Source: Guyparkeria sp. SCN-R1 (lineage in GTDB: Bacteria > Pseudomonadota > Gammaproteobacteria > Halothiobacillales > Halothiobacillaceae). Taken from it: a stretch of DNA of 64,000 bases. Below the pieces are notes generated by a model that saw only the letters and a list, made by a program, of their open reading frames with translations, was not told the origin of the DNA and did not search any database. This document shows positions 1 to 12,839 of this stretch, one piece after another. Within the stretch, counting starts at the first letter, position 1; each line of letters starts with the position of its first letter. The position numbers were made by a program, and so were the translations under genes. The stretch covers positions 1 to 64,000 of the forward strand of contig NZ_QZMT01000008.1 in NCBI RefSeq assembly GCF_003932495.1, written 5' to 3'.

Positions 1-1451
1 GACTCAGGCCTTGGTGCCCGCCTAACCAACCGTCCAACTTTTGGGGGTCAGTTCACGCGGGCGGTTTTCTTTTCTTCCCCCAGGTGACCGTCACCACGCT
101 GTACGACACCAATATCTACGGCGTGAACGGGTCAGTTCCGATCATTAAGGAACAGGATCCACCTGCACCGATCGAAGACGAGACAGCGGATACCGTCGGC
201 ATTCTCTCGCCGAGCCTCGCGGTGCGCTCGGACTGGGACAACCACGAACTGAACTTCAACGCTGGGGCGGACTTGGCGCGCTATCGCGACAACAGCGACG
301 AGAACTACGACGACTTCTGGCTCAACACAGACGGCCGCTACGACATCAATGCCGTCTCCAACGTGTTTGGCGGGCTGGGCTACACCCGGACGCACGAGGA
401 TCGCACCTCGCCGGAAGGGGCGGCCGGGGTGGAACCGGTGCAATACGACAGCCTGGATGCCCATGGCGGCTACGCGCGTCGTATTGGTCAGACCGTGTTG
501 CGACTGGGCGCGACGGCGCAGCAACTGGATTACGAGAGCGGCATCGATGCAACTGGTGTGCCGATCAACCACGACGACCGTGATCGGGATATTTACGCCC
601 TCGGTGCGCGACTGACCTACCTGCGCTCGCCGCAAATCCAGCCGTTCGTGCAGGGCTCGGTCGAGACCCGACGCTACGAGCAACTAACCAACCATTTCGA
701 AACCACTGCTCTACCCGGTGAGGACGTTGACCGTGATTCGGACGGTTATCGAGTAGCGGCGGGCCTGGCTTTCCGCCAGGGCACAAGTCTCGATGGCGAG
801 GTCTATGCGGGGGTGTTGCATCAGAACTTCGATGATCCTCGTTTCTCGTCGATCACGACGCCGGACATCGGAGCTCAAGTGAACTGGCAGGTTACGCCAT
901 TCACCAAGTTGCGTGGATCGCTCGATCGTTCGCTCGAAGAGACGACATATTGGGTAATGCCCGATGGGGTGCAGCCGATTTTTTCGTCGAGCTACCTCTA
1001 CAGCCGTGCCGAGGCCAGTGTCGAGCACCGCCTCACGCCCCGCACGACCTTGTCGGCCCTGGCCTCCTATGGCCAGGTGGACTATCAGGAGGTGGATCGC
1101 ACCGACGACCTGATCAGTGCCGGCGTCGGGATCGAGTACCGGCTGACGCGCAACCTGTTGCTGCAGTTCGACTACCGCCACTTTCAGCGCGACTCCGACT
1201 TCCGCGATCCGTTCAACGAGAAGCAAGATCAGTTCAACGGTGACCTGTTCGATGGCAATTACCAGCGAGACCAGTTCTACCTGCGTCTCAAGGCGTTGCT
1301 GTACCCGGTACGCGAGCCGGCGGTGGTCGCCGGCACCTTCTCCGGGCTGGCCGACACGCGTGGCTCGGGGCTCGGCGGTGGCTTCTACGCCGGTGCGCAA
1401 GCCGGCGTGAGTGGCTTGGCCACCGATACCATCGGGCCGCGTGGCGAGTAG
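1..1451 (+). CDS. Outer membrane beta-barrel protein (BBP2_2-like), 5' partial, ends at an in-frame TAG
   Basis: The frame is open from the window edge, so the start codon and signal peptide lie upstream. The GTG at 84 is unlikely to be the true start, because the codons before it already read like mature barrel sequence (HAGGFLFFPQ followed by VTVTTLYDTNIYG). The body alternates aromatic and polar residues and ends its first barrel near RDQFYLRLKALLYP, as expected of the BBP2_2 family of outer-membrane barrels linked to exopolysaccharide or surface functions. From about position 1371 a second, opacity-type barrel begins (GGGFYAGAQAG) but is cut by TAG at 1449-1451. The same frame continues without another stop to 2600. 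The amber codon is seen directly; whether it is a real mutation, readthrough or a sequence error cannot be told. Confidence 0.8.
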   Translation, partial: LRPWCPPNQPSNFWGSVHAGGFLFFPQVTVTTLYDTNIYGVNGSVPIIKEQDPPAPIEDETADTVGILSPSLAVRSDWDNHELNFNAGADLARYRDNSDENYDDFWLNTDGRYDINAVSNVFGGLGYTRTHEDRTSPEGAAGVEPVQYDSLDAHGGYARRIGQTVLRLGATAQQLDYESGIDATGVPINHDDRDRDIYALGARLTYLRSPQIQPFVQGSVETRRYEQLTNHFETTALPGEDVDRDSDGYRVAAGLAFRQGTSLDGEVYAGVLHQNFDDPRFSSITTPDIGAQVNWQVTPFTKLRGSLDRSLEETTYWVMPDGVQPIFSSSYLYSRAEASVEHRLTPRTTLSALASYGQVDYQEVDRTDDLISAGVGIEYRLTRNLLLQFDYRHFQRDSDFRDPFNEKQDQFNGDLFDGNYQRDQFYLRLKALLYPVREPAVVAGTFSGLADTRGSGLGGGFYAGAQAGVSGLATDTIGPRGE

Positions 1452-1469
1452 GGCACTGATACCGCCACC

Positions 1470-2600
1470 ATGGTCGGCAAGGGCTGGAACACGGGTCTGT
1501 TCGCCGGCTGGGGCCTGACCACCCGGAACAACTGGTACGGCGGCATCGAGATTGAAGGCGCGCGCAGCGGTGCCGACTGGGATCACTCCAAGAACAAGTC
1601 AACCAGCCGCACCTTTTCGCTCGACATGAACGACAGCTGGGGCGCGAGCCTGCGCGGCGGTCGCGTGCTGGCCAACGGGGCGTTGCTTTCCGGCCAGCTC
1701 GGCATGGTTCGCAGCGAATTCGATACCTTCTACCAGGCCAACGACGCCCCGCAGAACGCCGCAGACGACTCGGACGACCAGAACGGCACCCGCTACGGGG
1801 TGGGCGTCGACGTGCCGGCGGGCAAGCACCTGTTCTGGCGCATGGGCTACAGCATCACCGATTACGACGGCTACGATGTGGTCTACGACACCACGCCCGA
1901 TGGCGTCGACCGGTTCGAGACACGTGAAGGGCTGTTCCGCATCGGTCTAGGCTGGCGCTTCGGTGGCCAGGACTACGCGCCGGTCGACCCGACCGAGGGA
2001 GATATCGGCGGCTTCTACGCCGGTGGACAGGTCGGCCATACCCTGCTCACCAGCGACCTCGACGCCGAGCATTACGACTCGGACGAGGGGCCGTATCGTT
2101 TGCAGGCCAGTTTCGGTAATGACGGCGCAAGCACCGGCGTGTTCGCCGGTTACGGCTGGCAGTGGGATCGGATCTATCTCGGCCTGGAACTGGACGTCGA
2201 GAACAGCGGCGCGGAATGGGAGCACGTGCGCGAGCCGACGGGCCGCCAATTCTCCGCCGAGCAGAAGGGTGGACAGGCGCTCTCCGCTCGTCTGGGCTAC
2301 CAGCTGGACAACGGCACGCTGCTCTACGCCCGTTTGGGCAAGGCGCGCAGCCAGTTCAACTACCGATACCGCAAGGGCGAGAATCCCGATAACGACATCA
2401 ACCGCGATGTCAGCGAGATCGGAACCCGTTTCGGCCTGGGTGCGGAAGTGCCGTTGACGCCCAATACCTTCGTGCGAATGGACTACAACCGCACGGACTA
2501 CGGCGACATTGATTTCGCGACCACCCATGGCAACACCGACACGGTGAGCCTGGACAACGAAACCGACCAGTTCCGGCTCGGGGTGGGCTACCGCTTCTAG
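1470..2600 (+). pseudogene. C-terminal part of the same barrel protein: two tandem opacity-type barrels
   Basis: This lies in the same frame as the preceding gene, 18 nt after the TAG. It has no visible ribosome binding site and no signal peptide, so it is probably not an independent gene. It holds the rest of opacity-type repeat 1 (ending RIGLGWRFGG near 1967) and a complete repeat 2 that begins DIGGFYAGGQVG near 2002 and ends in the outer-membrane signature FRLGVGYRF. The repeats share the pattern GxFAGxG, IEIEGARSGADW versus LELDVENSGAEW, and LGxxRSxF. With the upstream part, the intact protein would be one BBP2_2 barrel fused to two eight-stranded barrels. A strong terminator follows. Confidence 0.75.
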
Positions 2601-2632
2601 CTTGGGGGCGCTCCATTTTCCTGTGCGAAAAG

Positions 2633-2664
2633 AACCCCGCCGTCGAGCGGGGTTCATTGTTTTT
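2633..2664 (+). terminator. Rho-independent terminator of the barrel gene
   Basis: AACCCCGC and GCGGGGTT form a perfect 8-bp stem around a 6-nt loop, followed by CATTGTTTTT. Confidence 0.85.
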
Positions 2665-2811: not shown

Positions 2812-2847
2812 AACTACCTTGTACGAAGTAGTTTATGGGCATATAAG
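2812..2847 (+). promoter_or_regulatory. Predicted sigma-70 promoter with an overlapping inverted repeat
   Basis: TTGTAC (2819-2824) and TATAAG (2842-2847) are separated by exactly 17 bp in an AT-rich stretch unlike its surroundings. A 6-bp inverted repeat, AACTAC (2812-2817) and GTAGTT (2828-2833), brackets the -35 box and could be an operator. The only gene it can serve is the secreted Gly-rich protein at 2890. Otherwise the interval 2665-2889 holds only the AAAGGAGG ribosome binding site at 2866-2873. Confidence 0.55.
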
Positions 2848-2889: not shown

Positions 2890-4068
2890 ATGAAATCGCT
2901 TTTCAATACCAACCAGAAACGCTTGACCGTCAGCCTGGTGGCTGCCGGTGTGTTTGCCGTGCCCATGCTGGTCGGCAATACCTACACGCACAACCTGATG
3001 CCAATCTCGTCGGCCCATGCGGCCTCGGAACAAGGCCAAGGCGGCCAAGGGGCCGGTGGTGCCATGAAAGGCCAGGGCGGCATCGGTGGCGCTGGCGGCG
3101 TCTCCGGAGGCCAACAGAGCCTGGACGTCAACGACGTGCTGCGCGGCAAGGGTACCGGTGGCCGGGATGCCGGCATCACGGGTCGACCCGACGACAAGGG
3201 CCCGCCGGAAGGTGATGGACCGACTGGTGACATGGGCGGCGGCAATCCGAATGCCGGTACCACCAAGGGGGATCTCTACGGTGATCTCTACGTGGTGCTG
3301 CGAGACCCCCTCACCGGCGCGCCGATCCTTGATGACGAGGGTCGCCTGCAGTTCCTCGATGTCGATGGCAACGTGATCGCTTATGCATCGGATGATCCGG
3401 AAGACGAGGGATATACCGAGGTCGTCGATGAAACGCTGTTGCAGGAGGTCTCGTTTGACCGCCTGAACCTGGCCCGTTCGCCGCAGGCCGTCCTGAGTCA
3501 CTCTCTCGACACGGCGCTCGAGACGATCGCCCTGGATGCCGATGGTGTGCTCGAGTTCGATGCCGCCGGTCGTGTGGTGATCGTGGATGCTGACGGCGTC
3601 GTCTACACGATCGATTCGCCGCTGGAAAACCTGGCGCTTTACCAGGATGCCATCGTGCGACTGAACGATGACATCGACGGGAACGAGACGTTCACCCTCG
3701 ACCAGACGGACTCCCTGCTGGCCGCCGCGGCGAGCAAGTTCGGTACGGTGAGCCTCGACATGGTCGTCTACCTGAACACCATCCTTGGCCTCAACACGGT
3801 GACCGATGCGGGCACAACGGACTATGTGGACCTGACAAGTTTCACCTATGACCGTACCGATGCCTACACCAATCCGGATGGGACTCCTGTCGAGGTGACA
3901 TACCTCTCCGACCCGGAGGGTGATGGGACTTACATCACCGTCACCGAGTCGCTGCTGGATGCGGTGTTCGACGGCGAAACCGCGACGGCTGACGGCGCCA
4001 CGGGCTACGCCTTGTCGACGGACGACGCCCTGCAGGTAATCGAGTTCATCCACGAACCGATTCACTGA
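2890..4068 (+). CDS. Secreted Gly-rich protein of unknown function (paralog 1)
   Basis: This is a 392-residue protein with a Sec signal peptide: KR-rich n-region, hydrophobic core and likely cleavage after SSAHA near residue 44. The mature N-terminus is a Gly/Gln-rich low-complexity linker to about residue 75. A folded acidic region from about residue 125 starts with YGDLYVVLRDP. It contains repeated DxDG-type turns (FLDVDGNVIAY, ALDADGVLEFD, IVDADGVVYTID) reminiscent of calcium-binding or adhesin loops. It shares the whole C-terminal region with the next gene, including the ending EFxHEPIH. A strong Shine-Dalgarno lies 16 nt upstream of the ATG. I recognise no named family. Secretion to the cell surface or medium is inferred only from the signal peptide. 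Confidence 0.8.
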   Translation: MKSLFNTNQKRLTVSLVAAGVFAVPMLVGNTYTHNLMPISSAHAASEQGQGGQGAGGAMKGQGGIGGAGGVSGGQQSLDVNDVLRGKGTGGRDAGITGRPDDKGPPEGDGPTGDMGGGNPNAGTTKGDLYGDLYVVLRDPLTGAPILDDEGRLQFLDVDGNVIAYASDDPEDEGYTEVVDETLLQEVSFDRLNLARSPQAVLSHSLDTALETIALDADGVLEFDAAGRVVIVDADGVVYTIDSPLENLALYQDAIVRLNDDIDGNETFTLDQTDSLLAAAASKFGTVSLDMVVYLNTILGLNTVTDAGTTDYVDLTSFTYDRTDAYTNPDGTPVEVTYLSDPEGDGTYITVTESLLDAVFDGETATADGATGYALSTDDALQVIEFIHEPIH

Positions 4069-4105
4069 TTCGCTTGGTGAGGTGGAATGGCTGGTAGCCA
4101 TTTTC

Positions 4106-4133
4106 AAGGCCCCCGTTCCGGGGGTCTTTTTTT
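4106..4133 (+). terminator. Rho-independent terminator between the two Gly-rich paralogs
   Basis: GGCCCCC pairs with GGGGGTC across GTTCC, followed by seven T residues. It suggests the two paralogs are not simply one transcript. Confidence 0.85.
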
Positions 4134-4195
4134 CGCCTCGACTCTCAAGCGAAGCGACCGATCAGTGCAGAAGGGCAATCTCCAGGGAGATTCAC

Positions 4196-5356
4196 ATGAC
4201 TATCAATAATTCGTTCAAGAAAACACATCGCCCGTTACTCGCCAGTCTGGCCGTCGCCGGGCTCGTCTCCGGATCGATGCTCATCGACGCGGGCCCGCTC
4301 GCGCCGGTTACCGCCATCTCGACTGTTCAGGCCGCCGAGGGCGGCCATTCCAGCGGTGGTCGGGGCGGCTCGGCGGGCGGTGGCCACGATACCGGCACGA
4401 CGCACACCGATGACGGTACCGATGATCACGCCGACAGCGACCACGGCAAGAAAGGCCCGGGTGGCAAGGGTGGTGCCGGCGGCAAGGGCGGCAAAGGCGG
4501 TGGCCACGCCGGCGCAGGCAGCCAGCAACTGGTCGACAGCGTGTTCCGCGGCAAGGGGCGCGACAGCCTCGACGCGATGCCAGGAACGTCGGGTCGAGGT
4601 GCGTCCGGCAAGGGTGGGCTGTACGGCGATCTCTACGTGATCCTGCGCAATCCGGACGGATCCCCCGAGCTCGACGACCTCGGTCGCGTGCAATTCCTCG
4701 ATGCCGATGGGAACGTGATCGCGTACACCTCAGATGATCCGGATGCCGAAGGCTTTACCGAGGTGGTCAACGAGGCGGCGTTGCAGGAAGTCGAATTCGA
4801 ACGGCTGAACGTGGTCCGGGCGCCGCCAACGGTGCTTGATCACTCGCTTGAAGAGGCACTGCGCACGCTTGCCCTGGATGCCGACGGCGAACTGGACACC
4901 GATGCCGCCGGCCGGCTCGTGGTGGTGGATGCCGCCGGCAACGAGTTCACCATCGACTCACCGCTGGCGAACCTCTCGCTCTATCGGGCGGCCCTGACCG
5001 ATGGCAGCTGGACCCTGCAGGACGCCGCGGTGTTCCTGGGTAGTGCCTCGTCCAAGACCAACGGCATCACGACGGACACGGTCGTCTACCTGAACACCAT
5101 CCTGGGCATCAACAACCCAGAGGACGGCTACTACGACCTGTCCGGGTTTGCCTACGAGCGCACCGGTGTCCACACGGGGACCGTTACCTACCTGACCGAC
5201 CCGGATGGGGACGGCACCTATGTCGAGCAGACCGAGTCGATCATGGATGCCGTGTTCGACGGCACGGGGTACAGCGGCACCGGGGCCGATGCCTTTGCCC
5301 AGGCGGCCGACGATGCCCGGGCGGTGATCGAGTTCACTCACGAGCCGATTCACTAA
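4196..5356 (+). CDS. Secreted Gly-rich protein of unknown function (paralog 2)
   Basis: The start ATG at 4196 is chosen because AGGGAG lies 7 nt upstream and a Sec signal peptide follows directly, with cleavage likely after VQAA. An upstream in-frame ATG at 4082 would run through the terminator. The 386-residue protein has a long linker rich in Gly, Lys, His and Asp (residues about 45-115, with repeated GGKGG). It then has the same domain as paralog 1: YGDLYVILRNP, FLDADGNVIAYTSDDPDAEG, LDADGELDTDAAGR, TIDSPLANLSLY and a final EFTHEPIH. The two copies differ mostly in the low-complexity linker. Tandem duplication is the simplest explanation. Function unknown. Confidence 0.8.
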   Translation: MTINNSFKKTHRPLLASLAVAGLVSGSMLIDAGPLAPVTAISTVQAAEGGHSSGGRGGSAGGGHDTGTTHTDDGTDDHADSDHGKKGPGGKGGAGGKGGKGGGHAGAGSQQLVDSVFRGKGRDSLDAMPGTSGRGASGKGGLYGDLYVILRNPDGSPELDDLGRVQFLDADGNVIAYTSDDPDAEGFTEVVNEAALQEVEFERLNVVRAPPTVLDHSLEEALRTLALDADGELDTDAAGRLVVVDAAGNEFTIDSPLANLSLYRAALTDGSWTLQDAAVFLGSASSKTNGITTDTVVYLNTILGINNPEDGYYDLSGFAYERTGVHTGTVTYLTDPDGDGTYVEQTESIMDAVFDGTGYSGTGADAFAQAADDARAVIEFTHEPIH

Positions 5357-6470: not shown

Positions 6471-7067
6471 TCAGAAGCTGACTTCGGGGGGCTTCTGGAT
6501 GGCCTCGCTGTCCTCGAACTCCAGCAATTGGGCATCCTCGCCATGGCCGACCAGCTTGCCGATCACGACCGGCGGGAAGGAGCGGCGGTACTCGTTGTAC
6601 TTCTGCACCAGGTCGTTGTAGGCCTGGCGGGAGTAGGCGACGCGGTTTTCCGTGGTGGCCAGTTCCTCGGCGAGCTGGCGCATGTTCGCATCGGCCTTGA
6701 GATCCGGGTAGGCCTCGAAGGTGGCGTTCAGTCGGCCCAGGCCACTGGTGAGCGCGGATTCCGCGCGGGAAAGCAGGTCCATGGTCTCGGGGTTTCCCGG
6801 CCGGTCATGCGCCGCGTCGACCGCCTTTTCGGCGGCGGCACGCGCCTCGGTGACCTCCTTGAGGACCGAGGCTTCGTGGTCCATGTAGCCCTTGGCCGTG
6901 TTGACCAGGTTGGGAATCAGGTCATGGCGACGCTTCAATTGCGTCTCGATTTGCGCAAAGCCGTTCTCGTACTGGGTCTGGTACGAGGTGAGCTTGTTGT
7001 AGAGGTAGATGACGTAGACGGCGGCGATCACGACCAGCGCGATCACGATCCAGATTTCGGTTCCCAT
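6471..7067 (-). CDS. lemA: LemA family protein
   Basis: This 198-residue protein begins with one N-terminal membrane segment (residues about 5-24). The helical LemA domain follows, with the hallmark stretch RRHDLIPNLVNTAKGY and the later ENRVAYSRQAYND and YNEYRRSFP. The start at 7067 is supported by AAGGAG about 9 nt upstream; the frame is open further upstream but without family similarity. It forms an operon with the M48 protease. LemA proteins are thought to work as membrane-anchored partners of these proteases, but their molecular function is not settled. Confidence 0.92.
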   Translation of the reverse strand: MGTEIWIVIALVVIAAVYVIYLYNKLTSYQTQYENGFAQIETQLKRRHDLIPNLVNTAKGYMDHEASVLKEVTEARAAAEKAVDAAHDRPGNPETMDLLSRAESALTSGLGRLNATFEAYPDLKADANMRQLAEELATTENRVAYSRQAYNDLVQKYNEYRRSFPPVVIGKLVGHGEDAQLLEFEDSEAIQKPPEVSF

Positions 7068-7311
7068 GGCGGCTTCTCCTTGCTTAAGCGCGACGAATGG
7101 TCGCGGGCCGTTTGACCAGGATTGGATGGACCCGCACGAGTGTACTCGTCTCGCTGGGTAGTTGCGTGGCAGTCGAGAGTGGATCGGCTGGGTACACGGC
7201 GTTTGCTGGTGGCGAACTGCGGTTTCGGGAAAACAGGGCGGGGCGTTCGGCAGCAACGTCAATCGTCGGTTTTTGGCACACTGCACGCTTGGTTCACTGA
7301 TGGGAACACGC

Positions 7312-8094
7312 ATGTCCTGGATTGGAAAAGCGGTGGGGGCCGGGCTTGGCTTCTGGATATTCGGTTGGATCGGAGCGGGTATCGGGCTGTTGCTCGGGCA
7401 CTTTCTCGATCGATTCTTCGGCCGGATCAAGCGGGTCGGTGGGCGGCTGCTCGAGGTGCAACAGACCTTCTTCGAGACGACCTTCACCGTGCTGGGTCAC
7501 GTCTGCAAGGCGGATGGCCAGGTCACGCAGGCGGAGATTCGTGCCGCCGAGCAGATCATGACGCAAATGCGCCTGACCAAGGCACGGCGCAGACGCGCGA
7601 TCGAGGCCTTCAATCGCGGCAAGGCCAGCGATTTCGATCCCGAACACATCATTCGCCGATTCGTGCGCGTTTGCGGCAGCCAGCCGACGCTGCTGCGGGT
7701 CTTTCTCGAGATCCAGATCCAGGCGGCGTTCGCCGATGGCCAGATTGCCCCGGCCGAGCGCGAGGCGTTGATGCGTATCGCCCATACCCTGGGCGTGTCG
7801 GATGCCGACTTTTCCCGGCTCGAGGCGCTGCTGGCGGGCCACTATCAACGTGGTCCGGGTGCGCCGACCACGGCCGCGGCCCTGGACAACGCCTACCAGG
7901 CGTTGGGGGTGGAGCGCTCGGCGACCGATCCCGAGGTCAAGCGCGCCTATCGAAAGTTGATGAGCGAGCACCATCCGGACAAGCTGATTGCCAAGGGGTT
8001 GCCGGATTCAATGGTCGAGTTGGCCAAGGAGCGCAGCCAGGAAATCCAGAACGCCTACGAGACCATCCGTCGGTCGCGTCAGGCCCAAGGGTAA
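7312..8094 (+). CDS. djlA: Co-chaperone DjlA (TerB-like domain plus C-terminal J domain)
   Basis: The protein has an N-terminal hydrophobic hairpin with Gly-rich helices (residues about 5-30), as in E. coli DjlA. A TerB-like central domain follows (GHVCKADGQVTQAE and FADGQIAPAERE are the paired acidic motifs). A C-terminal J domain carries the essential HPD tripeptide (EHHPDKL) near residue 220. It would stimulate DnaK ATPase at the cytoplasmic face of the inner membrane. I prefer ATG 7312, giving MSWIGKAVG and matching DjlA N-termini; ATG 7300, four codons earlier, is possible. No strong Shine-Dalgarno is visible for either. Confidence 0.9.
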   Translation: MSWIGKAVGAGLGFWIFGWIGAGIGLLLGHFLDRFFGRIKRVGGRLLEVQQTFFETTFTVLGHVCKADGQVTQAEIRAAEQIMTQMRLTKARRRRAIEAFNRGKASDFDPEHIIRRFVRVCGSQPTLLRVFLEIQIQAAFADGQIAPAEREALMRIAHTLGVSDADFSRLEALLAGHYQRGPGAPTTAAALDNAYQALGVERSATDPEVKRAYRKLMSEHHPDKLIAKGLPDSMVELAKERSQEIQNAYETIRRSRQAQG

Positions 8095-8124
8095 GAGCCG
8101 TTTTTACAACGAAGGAGTGACGTG

Positions 8125-8577
8125 ATGACCGGTTTATTGATGGTGATCCACCTGCTGTCCGCGGTCCTGTGGATCGGTGGTGTCTTCTATGCCTACGTGA
8201 TCCTGCGCCCGTCGGTGGGGTTTCTTTCCGGCCCTGAGCGGGTCTCGCTCTGGGATCGGGTGTTTACGCGCTTCTTTCGTTGGGTGTGGGTCCTGATTGC
8301 CGCCCTGTTGATCAGTGGCTACGGGATGCTGTTCTCGGCGTTCGGTGGGTTCGGTTCGCCGGGCTACCTGCACGGGATGCAACTGTTCGGCTGGTTGACG
8401 ATCATCGCGTTCGTCGTGCTCGCCTTCGGGCCGTATCGGCAGTTGCACATCGCGGTGGCGGCCGAGGACTGGTCACGGGCCGGGGAAATGATTCCGCGCA
8501 TCCGCCGGCTGGTGCATATCATCATGTGGCTGGGCCTGGTGAGCATCGCGATCGGTGGGGGCGGCTCCTACCTGTAA
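8125..8577 (+). CDS. CopD-like integral membrane protein
   Basis: This roughly 150-residue protein has four predicted membrane helices. The opening LLMVIHLLSAVLWIGGVFYAY, with His and Trp in the first helix, and HLHIAVA/RRLVHIIMWLG later in the chain resemble the CopD/DUF4149-like family of small membrane proteins with conserved histidines. Such proteins are variously linked to copper handling or heme-like ligands; function here is unproven. The ATG at 8125 is preferred over the adjacent GTG because GAAGGAG ends 7 nt upstream. It lies 30 nt after djlA and may be cotranscribed. Confidence 0.75.
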   Translation: MTGLLMVIHLLSAVLWIGGVFYAYVILRPSVGFLSGPERVSLWDRVFTRFFRWVWVLIAALLISGYGMLFSAFGGFGSPGYLHGMQLFGWLTIIAFVVLAFGPYRQLHIAVAAEDWSRAGEMIPRIRRLVHIIMWLGLVSIAIGGGGSYL

Positions 8578-8636
8578 GGCGGTGCGTCGGGCGAGCGCTG
8601 GTTTGAAAAACCGCCCGGCCAGGGACTATGGTCTCG

Positions 8637-8902
8637 GGAAACTCTTCACGATTCGATGACGTCTCTGCGGGACCTCCAAGGGCCCAGATGCAAGGCGCAG
8701 TCCGCCGTGAAGGGCCGTGGCCCTTTACAAGGGCTGCAACGCCGCAGATGGGCCCTTGGAGGCCCGCCCGGACGGGGCTCGCGGGTTTGTCCGCACTCGG
8801 CGTTACCGTCCCTCGACGGGCAACGAGCCCGTCTTCGGTCCGGCGCCTTGATTGCGGACAAACCCGCAAGCCAGAGATGCCATCGAATCGTGAAGAGTTT
8901 CC
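8637..8902 (+). mobile_element. Three-armed palindromic element, copy 1 (non-coding, MITE-like)
   Basis: This 266-bp element has perfect terminal inverted repeats of more than 20 bp (left 8636-8658, right 8881-8903) starting GGAAACTCTTCACG. Inside are two long palindromic arms. Arm A pairs CCTCCAAGGGCCCA (8673-8686) with 8749-8762 and carries a tip hairpin AAGGGCC-GT-GGCCCTT (8710-8725). Arm B pairs 8776-8795 with 8853-8872, a 20-bp stem with one mismatch. The 4-bp flanks are CTCG and CTAG. It has no credible gene. It occupies most of the 379-bp gap between the CopD-like gene and the aldolase. Confidence 0.85.
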
Positions 8903-8956
8903 CTAGAGCGGTCACTTTTCACGACATGATTTCACACGGAATCAAGGAGTTCGCGC

Positions 8957-10003
8957 ATGACTACCTATCGTCCCGAGAAAGCCGACGAGTTGATCAAGAC
9001 GGCCAAGGCGATGGTCGCGCCCGGCAAGAGCATCCTGGCGATCGACGAGAGCAATGGAACCTGCAACAAGCGTTTCGAGGCCGTCGGCATTGATGCCACG
9101 GAGCAGAAGCGGCGCGAGTATCGCGAGTTGCTGCTGACCACGCCGAACCTCGAGGAGTACGTCAGCGGCGCGATCCTCTACGACGAGACGATTCGTCAGT
9201 CGGCGGCCGACGGCAAGTCGTTCATCGACGTGATGCGTGAGCGCGGCCAGGTGGTGGGCATCAAGGTCGATACCGGGGCCAAGCCGTTGGCCGGCTCGGA
9301 TGGTGAGAAGGTCACCGAGGGCCTCGACGGCTTGCGCGAGCGCCTCGCGGAGTACTACGAGATGGGCGCGCGCTTTGCCAAGTGGCGGGCGGTCATCGCG
9401 ATCGACACCGCCAAGGGCCTGCCGAGCCGCGGCTGCATCGAGGCCAATGCCCATGCCTTGGCTCGCTACGCTGCCCTGTGCCAGGAGGCCGGCCTGGTAC
9501 CGATCATCGAGCCGGAGGTGCTGATTGATGGTGACCACGACATCGCCACCTGCGAGCGGGTCACCGAGGAGGAGCTCAACGAGGTCTTCCGTCAGCTTTA
9601 TCACCAGAACGTGATGCTCGAGGGCGTGATCCTCAAGACCAGCATGGTGATCTCGGCCAAGAACGCCGCGAACCGGGCGGGCGTCGACGAAGTGGCCGAC
9701 CGCACGGTCGAGACCCTCTTGCGCACCGTCCCGGCGGCGCTGGGTGGCGTGGTGTTCCTCTCCGGCGGGCAGGGCGTCGAGGAATCCAGCGCACATCTGA
9801 ACGCCATGCACACCCGCCACGGCGATCATCTGCCATGGCCGCTGACCTTCAGCTACGCGCGTGCCATCCAGGGCCCGGCGCTCAACTTCTGGAAGGGCGA
9901 GCCCGCTAACGTCGAAGAGGCCCAGAAACGGGCCTTCACGCGGGCGAAGTACAACGGCCTGGCCAGTCTCGGCAAGTACAGCGAGGACATGGAAGGCGCC
10001 TGA
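8957..10003 (+). CDS. Class I fructose-bisphosphate aldolase
   Basis: This 348-residue enzyme of the animal/plant-type class I family cleaves fructose-1,6-bisphosphate (and in Calvin-cycle organisms condenses triose phosphates) through a Schiff base. Recognisable segments are SILAIDESNGTCNKRF, the EPEVLIDGDHD strand, the Schiff-base lysine in GVILKTSMV near residue 225, and the phosphate-binding FLSGGQGVEES. AAGGAG about 10 nt upstream supports the ATG. It is monocistronic, bounded upstream by the palindromic element and downstream by a terminator. The element sits where its promoter should be, so the element could influence expression. Confidence 0.95.
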   Translation: MTTYRPEKADELIKTAKAMVAPGKSILAIDESNGTCNKRFEAVGIDATEQKRREYRELLLTTPNLEEYVSGAILYDETIRQSAADGKSFIDVMRERGQVVGIKVDTGAKPLAGSDGEKVTEGLDGLRERLAEYYEMGARFAKWRAVIAIDTAKGLPSRGCIEANAHALARYAALCQEAGLVPIIEPEVLIDGDHDIATCERVTEEELNEVFRQLYHQNVMLEGVILKTSMVISAKNAANRAGVDEVADRTVETLLRTVPAALGGVVFLSGGQGVEESSAHLNAMHTRHGDHLPWPLTFSYARAIQGPALNFWKGEPANVEEAQKRAFTRAKYNGLASLGKYSEDMEGA

Positions 10004-10032
10004 TTCAGGCAATCCGCACGGTCGACAAGACA

Positions 10033-10059
10033 ATCCCGCCGATCCGGCGGGATTTTTTT
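10033..10059 (+). terminator. Rho-independent terminator of the aldolase gene
   Basis: ATCCCGCC pairs with GGCGGGAT across GATCC, followed by TTTTTT. Confidence 0.9.
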
Positions 10060-10112
10060 GGTGCCAGAGAACGACCGGCTAACGAGCGACCAGGGCGTTC
10101 GTCGGCGCTTGC

Positions 10113-11009
10113 TCAGGGGTGGGCGTCGGCCGGTCGTTCGCGGATCACCACCAGGCCGGCGGCAATGATGATCAGCCCCCCGAGGATCGTGAACGCATCC
10201 GGCCACTCGGCGAAGATCAGCCAGCCGAGGATCGTGGCACCGAAGATCTCCAGATACTGCAGCGGGGCGAGCAGGCTGGCATCGCTGCGGGCGAAGGCCA
10301 TCGCGATCAGCACATGGGCGAAGGCGGCGAGCACCCCGGCGGCGGCCAGCCAGAACCATTCGTGCGGCTCCGGCATGTCCCAGCGGGCGATCGACCAGCT
10401 GAGGCCCTGGCCCAGGAGCACGAAGCCCAGCATGATCAACGAGGCGGCGGCCCCCACCCAGAATTGCAGTACCAGCGCATCGCGGGGCCGAGGTGCGCTG
10501 GTCCAGGCCCGCGTCGCGGTCAGGTAGCCCGCATAGCAGGCAGCGGCGGCGATCGGCAGCAGGGAGGCCAGTCCGAAGGCGCCCCAGTTCGGGCGCAGGA
10601 TGACCACGGCACCCACCAGCCCGCCGAGCACGCCGATCCAGCGCCTGGCGGTGATGCGCTCGCCCAGGAACAGGGCGGAGAAGATGACCAGGATCAACGG
10701 CTCGACGAAGAACAGCGCGATATTGTTGGCCAGTGGCAGGTGGGCCAGCCCCCAGAAGAGGAACAGGATCGAGGCGGCAATCAGTGCGCCCAACAGGAGA
10801 TGGATCGGCCGCAGCCGTCCGCCGCGCCAGTACATGGCGACAAACGGCAGCAGGAAGAGGGTCTGGAACACGAACCGAAGCCAAGCGATCTCGCCCACCG
10901 ACAACTCGGTCGACAGCCACTTGGCGATCGTGTCGGACATCGGGATGGTCAGAACGGCGAGGGCCATCAGGATCAGGCCCAGACGGTGATGATGTTGGCT
11001 CTCTGTCAC
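10113..11009 (-). CDS. EamA/DMT-superfamily transporter
   Basis: This 298-residue protein has ten predicted membrane helices arranged as two EamA repeats. The first repeat ends near LGERITARRWIGVLGGLVGAV and the second near LEIFGATILGWLIFAEWPD; both carry the Glu/Trp-containing helix end typical of drug/metabolite exporters. The substrate cannot be read from sequence. The start is a GTG with a His-rich cytoplasmic leader. It is divergent from the pterin dehydratase gene with 166 bp between them, in which I see no clear promoter boxes. Confidence 0.88.
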   Translation of the reverse strand: MTESQHHHRLGLILMALAVLTIPMSDTIAKWLSTELSVGEIAWLRFVFQTLFLLPFVAMYWRGGRLRPIHLLLGALIAASILFLFWGLAHLPLANNIALFFVEPLILVIFSALFLGERITARRWIGVLGGLVGAVVILRPNWGAFGLASLLPIAAAACYAGYLTATRAWTSAPRPRDALVLQFWVGAAASLIMLGFVLLGQGLSWSIARWDMPEPHEWFWLAAAGVLAAFAHVLIAMAFARSDASLLAPLQYLEIFGATILGWLIFAEWPDAFTILGGLIIIAAGLVVIRERPADAHP

Positions 11010-11175
11010 GGTGCACCCATCGAACAGTTAGGTAGCTAAGCAAACTAACATGCTCTCGCAGATAAGGACAGCGATGGACGCGGCGGTACTCGTTGCCTAC
11101 AGTCCATTGCGACGCCAGAAGCCCTTTTCCATGGCGCGGACACCCTGAAATTGAAGTCGATGAGGTCTTGACGAG

Positions 11176-11523
11176 ATGAGCGAACTGGCCACGAATCGCT
11201 GTGAGGCATGCCGGGCCGATGCGCCCACCCTGGACGACAACGAGATCGCTGCACTGCAGAAGGAATTGCAGGATGACTGGCAGGTGATCACCCGCGACGG
11301 GGTACGACAGCTCGAGCGCGTGTTTCGATTTGACGATTTCGCGAGCGCCCTGGCCTTCACCAACGCCGTGGGCGAGATTGCCGAGGCGGAAGGCCATCAC
11401 CCCGCGCTGCTGACCGAGTGGGGGCGGGTGACCGTCACCTGGTGGAGTCACAAGATTCGCGGGCTGCATCGCAACGACTTCATCATGGCCGCGCGTACCG
11501 ACAAGCTCGCCGCCGAGCACTAG
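11176..11523 (+). CDS. phhB: Pterin-4a-carbinolamine dehydratase
   Basis: This 115-residue protein carries the family signature [23 protein letters not shown], with the catalytic His pair and the later [15 protein letters not shown]. The enzyme dehydrates 4a-hydroxytetrahydropterin, recycling the cofactor of aromatic amino-acid hydroxylases. No phenylalanine hydroxylase gene is in the window, so it may have another role, as is common for bacterial homologs. The N-terminal CxxC (CEACRAD) is typical of the proteobacterial subgroup. Confidence 0.93.
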
Positions 11524-11573
11524 GTCACTTGCCTGTCTTGCAGACATTGCTCCTCTGCGCTTGTCTGGCCAGA

Positions 11574-11609
11574 AGAAAAAAACCGGCCCCGCTACGCGGA
11601 GGGCCGGTC
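11574..11609 (-). terminator. Rho-independent terminator of the dodecin gene
   Basis: CCGGCCC (11583-11589) pairs with GGGCCGG (11601-11607). The run of A residues on the left becomes a U run on the minus strand, so it ends transcription from the dodecin gene. Confidence 0.85.
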
Positions 11610-11632
11610 TATCGGTCCGATCAACGTATCAA

Positions 11633-11839
11633 TCAGTCAAGTTGGAACGTGATTTTGGCGTTGATGCGGTACTTGGTGATGCGGTTGTCCTCGACCTTGG
11701 CCTCGAAGTCCTTGATGTAGATCGACTTGATGCCGTGGACACTGCGGCTGGCATTGGCGATGGCCTGGTTGGCCGCGTCTTCCCAGGACTTTTCCGACTC
11801 CGCGAGGACCTCGACGACCTTCAACATGTCGTTGCTCAT
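11633..11839 (-). CDS. Dodecin (flavin-binding small protein)
   Basis: This 68-residue protein matches dodecin in length and pattern: MLKVVEVLAESEKSWEDAANQAI, then a beta strand with IKSIYIKDFEAKVEDNRI and a final YRINAKITFQLD. Dodecins form hollow dodecamers that store or buffer flavins. The start at 11839 follows AGGAGGGAAGCC, an excellent ribosome binding site; upstream in-frame codons lack family similarity. Confidence 0.93.
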   Translation of the reverse strand: MSNDMLKVVEVLAESEKSWEDAANQAIANASRSVHGIKSIYIKDFEAKVEDNRITKYRINAKITFQLD

Positions 11840-11999
11840 GGCTTCCCTCCTGCCTTGTACGTGGATGGATAACGCCACTAACAAGGGTAGATGGTGAATC
11901 GGTATCCTGTCAGAGGCAGTCGGGTCCTCGTGGCGCGGGCCCGACGTTCAACCTGACCCAAGCAAAGGCGATACATGTTGCCCAGTTCAGACCCGGTGA

Positions 12000-12839
12000 G
12001 TGGCGATGATTGACTGGTTTCTCACGCCGATCGACGCCTTCGTGAGCGCCTCCCCGGTCGTGCAGGCACTGATCGCCACGCTGTTCACCTGGGGCATGAC
12101 CGCCGCCGGGGCGCTGCCGGTGTTCTTCACCGATCGCGAGAACCGTCGGCTGCTCGATGTGCTGCTGGGATTCACGGGCGGGGTGATGATTGCGGCCAGC
12201 TTCTGGTCGTTGCTGGCGCCATCGATCGAGATGGCCGCGGATCTGTCCGTGCCCGCCTGGTTCCCGGCGGCGGTGGGGTTCGCGCTGGGTGCGGTGTTCC
12301 TGCGCGGGGCGGATCTGATCCTGCCGCACCTGCATCTCAATGCCCCCATGCACGAAGCCGAAGGGATGCCGACGACCTGGCGGCGAACCACGTTGCTGGT
12401 CCTGGCGATCACCCTGCACAACATTCCCGAGGGGCTGGCGATCGGGGTGGCCTTCGGCGCACTGGCTTATGGTTTTGACAATGCCAGCCTCGGTGCGGCG
12501 GTCGCGCTGGCCATCGGCATCGGTATCCAGAATTTCCCCGAGGGCATGGCCGTAGCGATGCCGCTGCGCCGCGAGGGGATGAGCCGGCGAAAGAGCTTCT
12601 GGTACGGCCAGCTATCCGGCGTGGTCGAACCGATCGCGGGGGTGATTGGGGCGGCGGCGGTGCTGTTCTGGCAACCCATCCTGCCCTATGCGCTGGCCTT
12701 CGCCGCCGGGGCGATGATCTTCGTGGTGGTCGAGGAGGTGATCCCCGAGGCCCAGCGCAGTGGCCATGCCGATGCCGCGACGCTGGGTGTGGTTGGCGGG
12801 TTTATCGTGATGATGGTGCTGGACGTGGCCTTGAGTTGA
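12000..12839 (+). CDS. ZIP-family metal transporter
   Basis: This protein of about 278 residues has eight predicted helices. The ZIP metal-site motifs are in helices 4 and 5: [11 protein letters not shown] and [10 protein letters not shown] His-rich cytoplasmic loop ([11 protein letters not shown]) precedes them, as in ZupT/GufA-like proteins. It probably imports Zn2+ or another divalent metal. The start may be GTG 12000 or ATG 12006; neither has a strong Shine-Dalgarno. It converges on zntB, only 23 bp from its stop. Confidence 0.9.

Follow-up and report, generated by a model that had tools for sequence, protein, structure and literature searches.

The two tandem genes near the start of a contig of the sulphur oxidiser Guyparkeria sp. 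SCN-R1, termed A and B here, encode exported-type, constrained proteins that have a confidently predicted C-terminal domain in common and are genetically tied to specific outer-membrane barrels. It is very likely that this domain represents an uncharacterised family which is functionally linked to a ‘triple barrel’, a protein in which two OmpA-type barrels follow one of the BBP2_2 type. The partnership of A/B-type proteins with the triple barrel is well supported. Regarding their molecular job, there is about an even chance that A and B belong to the envelope or cell surface and act as dedicated partners of the barrel, the disordered arm docking on it and the acidic domain being displayed for a structural or adhesive purpose. 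The window, which is the whole stretch of DNA analysed (64,000 nucleotides), forms the start of the contig NZ_QZMT01000008.1, and its closest relatives are a MAG named Halothiobacillus sp., Guyparkeria hydrothermalis R3, and Guyparkeria sp. WRN-7.

Two tandem genes for exported proteins

An earlier reading of the letters alone (hereafter the sequence-only reading) had described a tandem pair of secreted Gly-rich proteins, and two tandem open reading frames are indeed present (Table 1), paralogous at 52% identity over 313 columns of a full-protein alignment (E = 3e-88). The mechanically called frame of gene B, from 4082, is an upstream GTG extension beginning 5' of the intergenic terminator; the ATG at 4196, preceded by AGGGAG, is the actual start. 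Both N-termini carry positive charge followed by a hydrophobic stretch (19-residue mean hydropathy of 1.85 in A and 1.81 in B), and a cleavage site of the AHA/VQA↓A type, read by eye, lies near residue 44 of A and 46 of B. The span from the hydrophobic core to the AxA cleavage site is unusually long in A, B, and most relatives, and the signal-sequence pattern ..IS(S/T)(A/V)(H/Q)A recurs in Guyparkeria and in the locus L030. The signal is followed by a Gly-rich linker of 85 residues in A and 96 in B, with 35% Gly in each. The C-terminal domain then runs from YGDLYV to HEPIH, with 54 acidic vs 8 basic residues in A and 46 vs 10 in B, and has four DxDG turns in either protein. All elements of the architecture first proposed, namely a Sec signal, a Gly linker, and an acidic domain of about 260 residues with DxDG turns, are seen in both A and B.

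Table 1. Features of the module in the window (positions of the window, forward strand)
Feature	Position	Strand	Basis or remark
Barrel gene, first part: BBP2_2 barrel and start of first OmpA-type barrel	48-1448	+	Pfam PF10082, E = 4.6e-82
In-frame TAG splitting the barrel gene	1449-1451	+	Read-through translation; relatives have Gln
Barrel gene, second part: two OmpA-type 8-stranded barrels, end GVGYRF	1452-2600	+	Pfam PF13505, PF01389
Terminator-like hairpin after barrel gene	2632-2655	+	9 bp stem, 7 GC pairs, T-rich tail; conserved in relatives
Possible promoter TTGTAC-17-TATAAG (~2819-2847) overlapping weak dyad	2812-2847	+	Sequence; below scan threshold
Gene A	2890-4068	+	ORF; 392-aa exported protein with long-type domain
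A signal peptide with extended c-region, residues 1-44	2890-3021	+	Hydropathy and cleavage pattern; family-wide layout
A Gly-rich arm, presumably disordered, residues 45-129	3022-3276	+	Composition
A short motif SLDVNDVLRGKG, conserved aliphatic cluster in arm	3118-3153	+	Like motif in most other linkers
A C-terminal domain, residues 130-392	3277-4065	+	Family alignments A1-A3; AlphaFold2
Terminator-like hairpin between A and B	4106-4128	+	10 bp stem, 7 GC pairs, T run; position conserved in relatives
Gene B ribosome-binding site AGGGAG	4184-4189	+	Sequence
Gene B	4196-5356	+	ORF from ATG 4196; 386-aa exported protein with long-type domain
B His/Asp-rich part of arm	4346-4453	+	Like small His/Gly gene of L031, L044, L058, L062
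B short motif QQLVDSVFRGKG in arm	4523-4558	+	Sequence
B C-terminal domain, residues 143-386	4622-5353	+	52% identity to A; family alignment A3

A and B are real, constrained genes. Their dN/dS values against three relatives (0.09-0.16 for A and 0.12-0.24 for B) reflect purifying selection, and both genes occur together in five of the 10 other sampled genomes of the genus. In the tree, the A copies form one group (support 100/100) and the B copies another (92/90). Since the copies group separately, the duplication that gave A and B predates the split of the sampled Guyparkeria species, and B additionally has a His/Asp-rich segment, which elsewhere is a separate small exported protein at this place.

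The C-terminal domain and its family

The domain had been described as one that could not be placed in a known family, and HMM and structure-prediction searches likewise gave no clear match to a characterised family, neither in curated libraries nor among solved structures, by sequence or by predicted fold. Scans of the proteins with Pfam, NCBIfam, PHROGs, and PADLOC returned no relevant match for the domain, and single-sequence and profile searches of PDB sequences returned no convincing one. The best query-only PDB match was to dishevelled PDZ domains (E 0.04); it covers the signal/Gly-rich region and represents low-complexity noise. AlphaFold2 modelled the A domain (positions 3268-4065, 32-sequence alignment) with a pLDDT of 88.2 and a pTM of 0.87, and a naturally short, 157-residue relative (L064) with a pLDDT of 93.7 and a pTM of 0.88, the latter all helical. 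For the A domain and the short relative, respectively, the best Foldseek E against the PDB was 0.3 and 1.7, and the best VIA-align Z was 3.3 over 55 residues and 2.7 over 87 residues, with no convincing match in the fold comparison with the PDB and BFVD. A GH76 mannanase (Z 3.3) and the spidroin N-terminal domain (Z 2.7) were rejected as candidates, their scores being within the range of unrelated folds. The outcome of the fold search is consistent with a new fold and is not proof of one. The literature search found no paper on the domain, nor on PF10082 by accession, and outer-membrane or secreted proteins are unmentioned by those words in the Guyparkeria pangenome paper (PMC9032823).

The family alignments reveal several near-invariant residues, which in A-domain numbering are E60, R65, N67, R70, D116, S117, N121, K157, and H262. 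The DxDG turns coincide with beta-turns, and the wider family does not conserve them. For this reason calcium binding through these turns, for which assays had been proposed earlier, is set aside; moreover, no EF-hand loop or RTX nonapeptide repeat was matched by Pfam in A or B. The C-terminal PEP motif, transmembrane helix, and basic tail of PEP-CTERM/exosortase substrates are absent from A and B, which end in an acidic helix and HEPIH and have no such NCBIfam match. Similarly, no N-terminal TPS/haemagglutination activity domain of two-partner secretion was found in A or B by Pfam at E up to 10, and their partner is of the BBP2_2/OmpA type rather than a TpsB protein.

By profile searches, the domain is not private to Guyparkeria. 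It is also present in some 14 other genomes of the phylum, which span at least two classes and include two genomes of one other gammaproteobacterial family and one genome of a further family; the second class is probably Alphaproteobacteria. The domain was counted in 6/369 genomes of the own-class sample (own genus included), 4/398 of the phylum sample, 4/337 of the second-class sample, and 10/148 in one order of the second class. It is thus widespread but patchy. Among viral contigs, 15 pattern matches were obtained and none was confirmed, and plasmids gave no match to the domain with three queries. The tree divides the family into long (about 260 residues) and short (about 110-160 residues) forms (support 97/95); the short ones lack the beta-hairpins at the N-terminus and the greater part of the C-terminal insert.

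Association with fused outer-membrane barrels

The gene upstream of A encodes an outer-membrane barrel protein whose parts are clear members of known families. PF10082 (BBP2_2) matches with 276 bits against a gathering score of 23.7, over profile positions 34-361 of 378; PF13505 matches in two stretches (E = 1.8e-26, 93.8 bits vs 28.7) and PF01389 with E = 1.8e-10 (41.3 bits vs 21). The Pfam scan found no C-terminal peptidoglycan-binding OmpA domain in the protein, which ends with the last barrel strand. The window barrel shares 91% identity with residues 66-908 of the 908-aa barrel of L015, with one TAG inside; the contig end also splits the gene, whose N-terminal ~65 codons are on another contig, residues 1-70 being found on contig C10. 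In the relatives L015, L016, and L017 a Gln stands at the position of the TAG and the gene is one open frame of 828-908 aa. The TAG may reflect a pseudogene, a sequencing or assembly error, or two separate proteins. Any loss of the barrel would be recent, because the substitution patterns look constrained on either side of the TAG (dN/dS 0.07-0.16). As a side observation, synonymous divergence from L015 over positions 84-2597 of the window falls from 0.56 ahead of the TAG to 0.21 behind it, a hint of recombination inside the barrel gene.

The sequence-only reading had proposed this neighbour as a secretion or surface partner, and its partnership with the domain gains support from other genomes. 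In eight of the 11 long-type loci outside the genus (L018, L031, L043, L044, L045, L058, L060, and L062), the gene immediately upstream of the domain gene, in the same orientation, encodes a complete protein with a BBP2_2 and two OmpA-type barrels, at 31-38% identity to the Guyparkeria barrel. BBP2_2 was matched by Pfam in all 11 partner barrels aligned. No cognate barrel was recognised near the long-type loci L029, L059, and L061 or the short-type L065.

In two genome samples, the complete barrel was seen only in genomes that have the long-form domain protein, and invariably next to it. Within the order sample (148 genomes), it is found at full length in exactly four, each with the domain protein adjacent. 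In the class sample, 82 of the 337 genomes match the barrel profile; only G462, G805, G819, and G851 do so at full length (>1000 bits), and these are exactly the four genomes with the domain, the other 78 matching in the common BBP2 part only. The P values for this co-occurrence, 1.1e-5 for the order and ~2e-9 (1/C(337,4)) for the class, are nominal and ignore shared ancestry, the seven genomes concerned representing seven genera. Short-type domains are found beside a different barrel of ~290 residues in L032, L033, L063, L064, and L066, which makes barrel pairing a feature of the whole family.

The short-type member of L030 lies beside an unusual type I secretion locus (6576-12605, minus strand), in which TolC accompanies a fusion of TolC with a BBP2_2 barrel and a LapA-retention/RTX adhesin; its TolC and adhesin neighbours point to surface adhesion.

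The glycine-rich arm and a small His/Gly protein

The arms of A and B contain the motifs LDVNDVLRGKG and QLVDSVFRGKG, respectively. A comparable aliphatic cluster is present within the otherwise Gly-rich arm of most other family members, and also in a small His/Gly gene elsewhere, and we infer that it may serve as a docking motif. The small gene encodes an exported His/Asp/Gly-rich protein (L031 7770-8264, L044 9315-9812, L058 3736-4272, and L062 9095-9538) with the motifs GKGPKYxGG and SLEDRVLK or close variants. It is a candidate metal binder, and the one tested (L031) had no family match. In Guyparkeria, B occupies the place of this gene, and its arm has a similar His/Asp stretch together with KKGPG(Y)xGG.

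Regulatory elements

A clear promoter with an operator-like dyad had been read upstream of A, which the present analysis does not bear out. A sigma-70 promoter scan found none (0.9 expected by chance); TATAAG and the ribosome-binding site of gene A (2867-2873) are conserved in the closest relatives. The dyad (2812-2833) is weak, with 11-nt arms that are 82% complementary, and the operator reading is unsupported because its symmetry is lost in the alignment of relatives. The terminator between A and B, on the other hand, is supported as a hairpin conserved in relatives. Individual regulation of the two genes, as proposed earlier, would follow from that terminator only. Co-transcription of the barrel gene and A is not implied, since a terminator separates them also.

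Possible function and alternative explanations

As their signal sequences suggest, A and B would cross the inner membrane through the Sec pathway. The conserved neighbourhood and strict co-occurrence indicate that they are probably dedicated partners of the upstream triple barrel. The Gly-rich arm may dock on or thread into the barrel via the L-x-D-x-V-L/F-R-G motif, which would leave the compact acidic domain, with its confidently predicted fold, presented at the outer membrane or on the surface of the cell. The displayed domain would most likely have a structural or adhesive job in a surface layer or biofilm matrix. A and B may not always need an intact barrel, as both are intact and constrained although the barrel of their own genome is cut by the TAG.

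Other explanations, in the order of barrel export, periplasmic gating, metal capture, and enzyme, have to be weighed against this display at the surface. It is unlikely that the triple barrel is a dedicated exporter, with A and B as secreted substrates that are released or polymerised as a matrix or fibre and carry the export signal in the arm and signal region. Export would agree with the strict pairing of barrel and substrate, the Gly-rich low-complexity arms, the duplication of the substrates (A with B, and copies in tandem in L033 and L045), and the one TolC/adhesin-type locus, L030. However, BBP2_2 and OmpA barrels are not known to export protein, the two OmpA-type barrels are too narrow for a folded domain, amyloid-type repeats are absent at the Pfam level, and the folded C-terminal domain would need to cross the outer membrane. 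Even less likely are A and B as periplasmic plug, gating, or assembly subunits of a polysaccharide-exporting porin, an idea prompted by the resemblance of BBP2_2 to EpsL-type proteins. The BBP2_2 part does score below threshold against EpsL and a PEP-CTERM-associated outer-membrane family, and BBP2 proteins often occur on their own in that class; yet the NCBIfam cut-off for EpsL is not reached (27.9 bits for the window barrel fragment vs the required 275), and no glycosyltransferase, Wza, or PEP-CTERM genes were recognised near the module in the window and the loci read.

Two further explanations concern the chemistry of the proteins. The His/Asp-rich arm of B, or the small His/Gly gene elsewhere, could capture Zn, Ni, Cu, or Ca at the surface, as the stretch HTDDGTDDHADSDH in B and the separate secreted protein at the same place in L031, L044, L058, and L062 would suggest. 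The arm of A is without a His/Asp segment, though, and with acidic turns that relatives do not conserve, no match of A or B to EF-hand or RTX families, and no metal transporter noticed nearby, metal capture is improbable. Least probable of all is an enzymatic C-terminal domain with a substrate in the envelope or outside the cell. A catalytic role would fit the many polar residues that stay near-invariant while the rest of the domain diverges, but neither its fold nor its family matched any enzyme, and several of the invariant residues lie in helix-cap-like motifs (DSPLENL), suggesting a structural role.

Known systems resemble the module in part. The first barrel of the partner is a clear member of BBP2_2 (PF10082), which includes the EpsL-like proteins of exopolysaccharide loci, but here it continues into two OmpA-type barrels within one protein and is paired with an exported domain protein, and no polysaccharide gene cluster was recognised beside it. 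The two barrels at the end of the protein are like those of the OmpA family (PF01389/PF13505), whereas the periplasmic peptidoglycan-binding OmpA domain is lacking. FapF exports FapC and CsgG exports CsgA, and the Fap and curli systems are alike in outline in having a dedicated barrel beside low-complexity exported proteins. This is an analogy and not membership, as the sequences are unrelated, the barrel is of another family, and A and B have a compact predicted domain where Fap and curli substrates have amyloid repeats; at the level of the Pfam scan, neither A, B, nor the barrel matched Fap or curli families. Likewise, the short-type relative of L030 sits in a locus of LapA/RTX type I adhesins, but A and B have Sec signals and have neither RTX repeats nor a type I target domain.

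A wider and rather doubtful proposal may be made, that the triple barrel and its cognate disordered-arm, new-fold proteins constitute an undescribed outer-membrane display or secretion system, patchily distributed over at least two classes of one phylum, and that a second branch works with a smaller barrel and a shorter form of the domain. Should the barrel display or export A/B-type proteins, it would offer an extra route for building the Gram-negative surface. The A/B-type proteins give a class of fused outer-membrane barrels a concrete, testable partner, and add a domain family that has no equivalent among the curated families and solved structures searched. Being compact (2-4 genes) and patchy in environmental bacteria, the pair is testable as a unit.

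Atypical members of the family

In L029 (7167-9320), tandem copies of the domain are part of a putative lipoprotein with an LTAC lipobox, which fits an envelope location. The units of this protein have a helical segment (ASDKT...ILG) placed before the core instead of after it; the frame has a TAG after its first 114 codons, and a TonB-dependent receptor gene lies upstream. A different rearrangement is seen in L009 (1498-2214, minus strand, genome G008), where the first ~200 codons of the barrel run in frame into the final ~28 codons of gene B. A single deletion, or a misassembly at a GGCGGCAC repeat, may explain why the remainder of the barrel gene, all of A, and the larger part of B are missing together.
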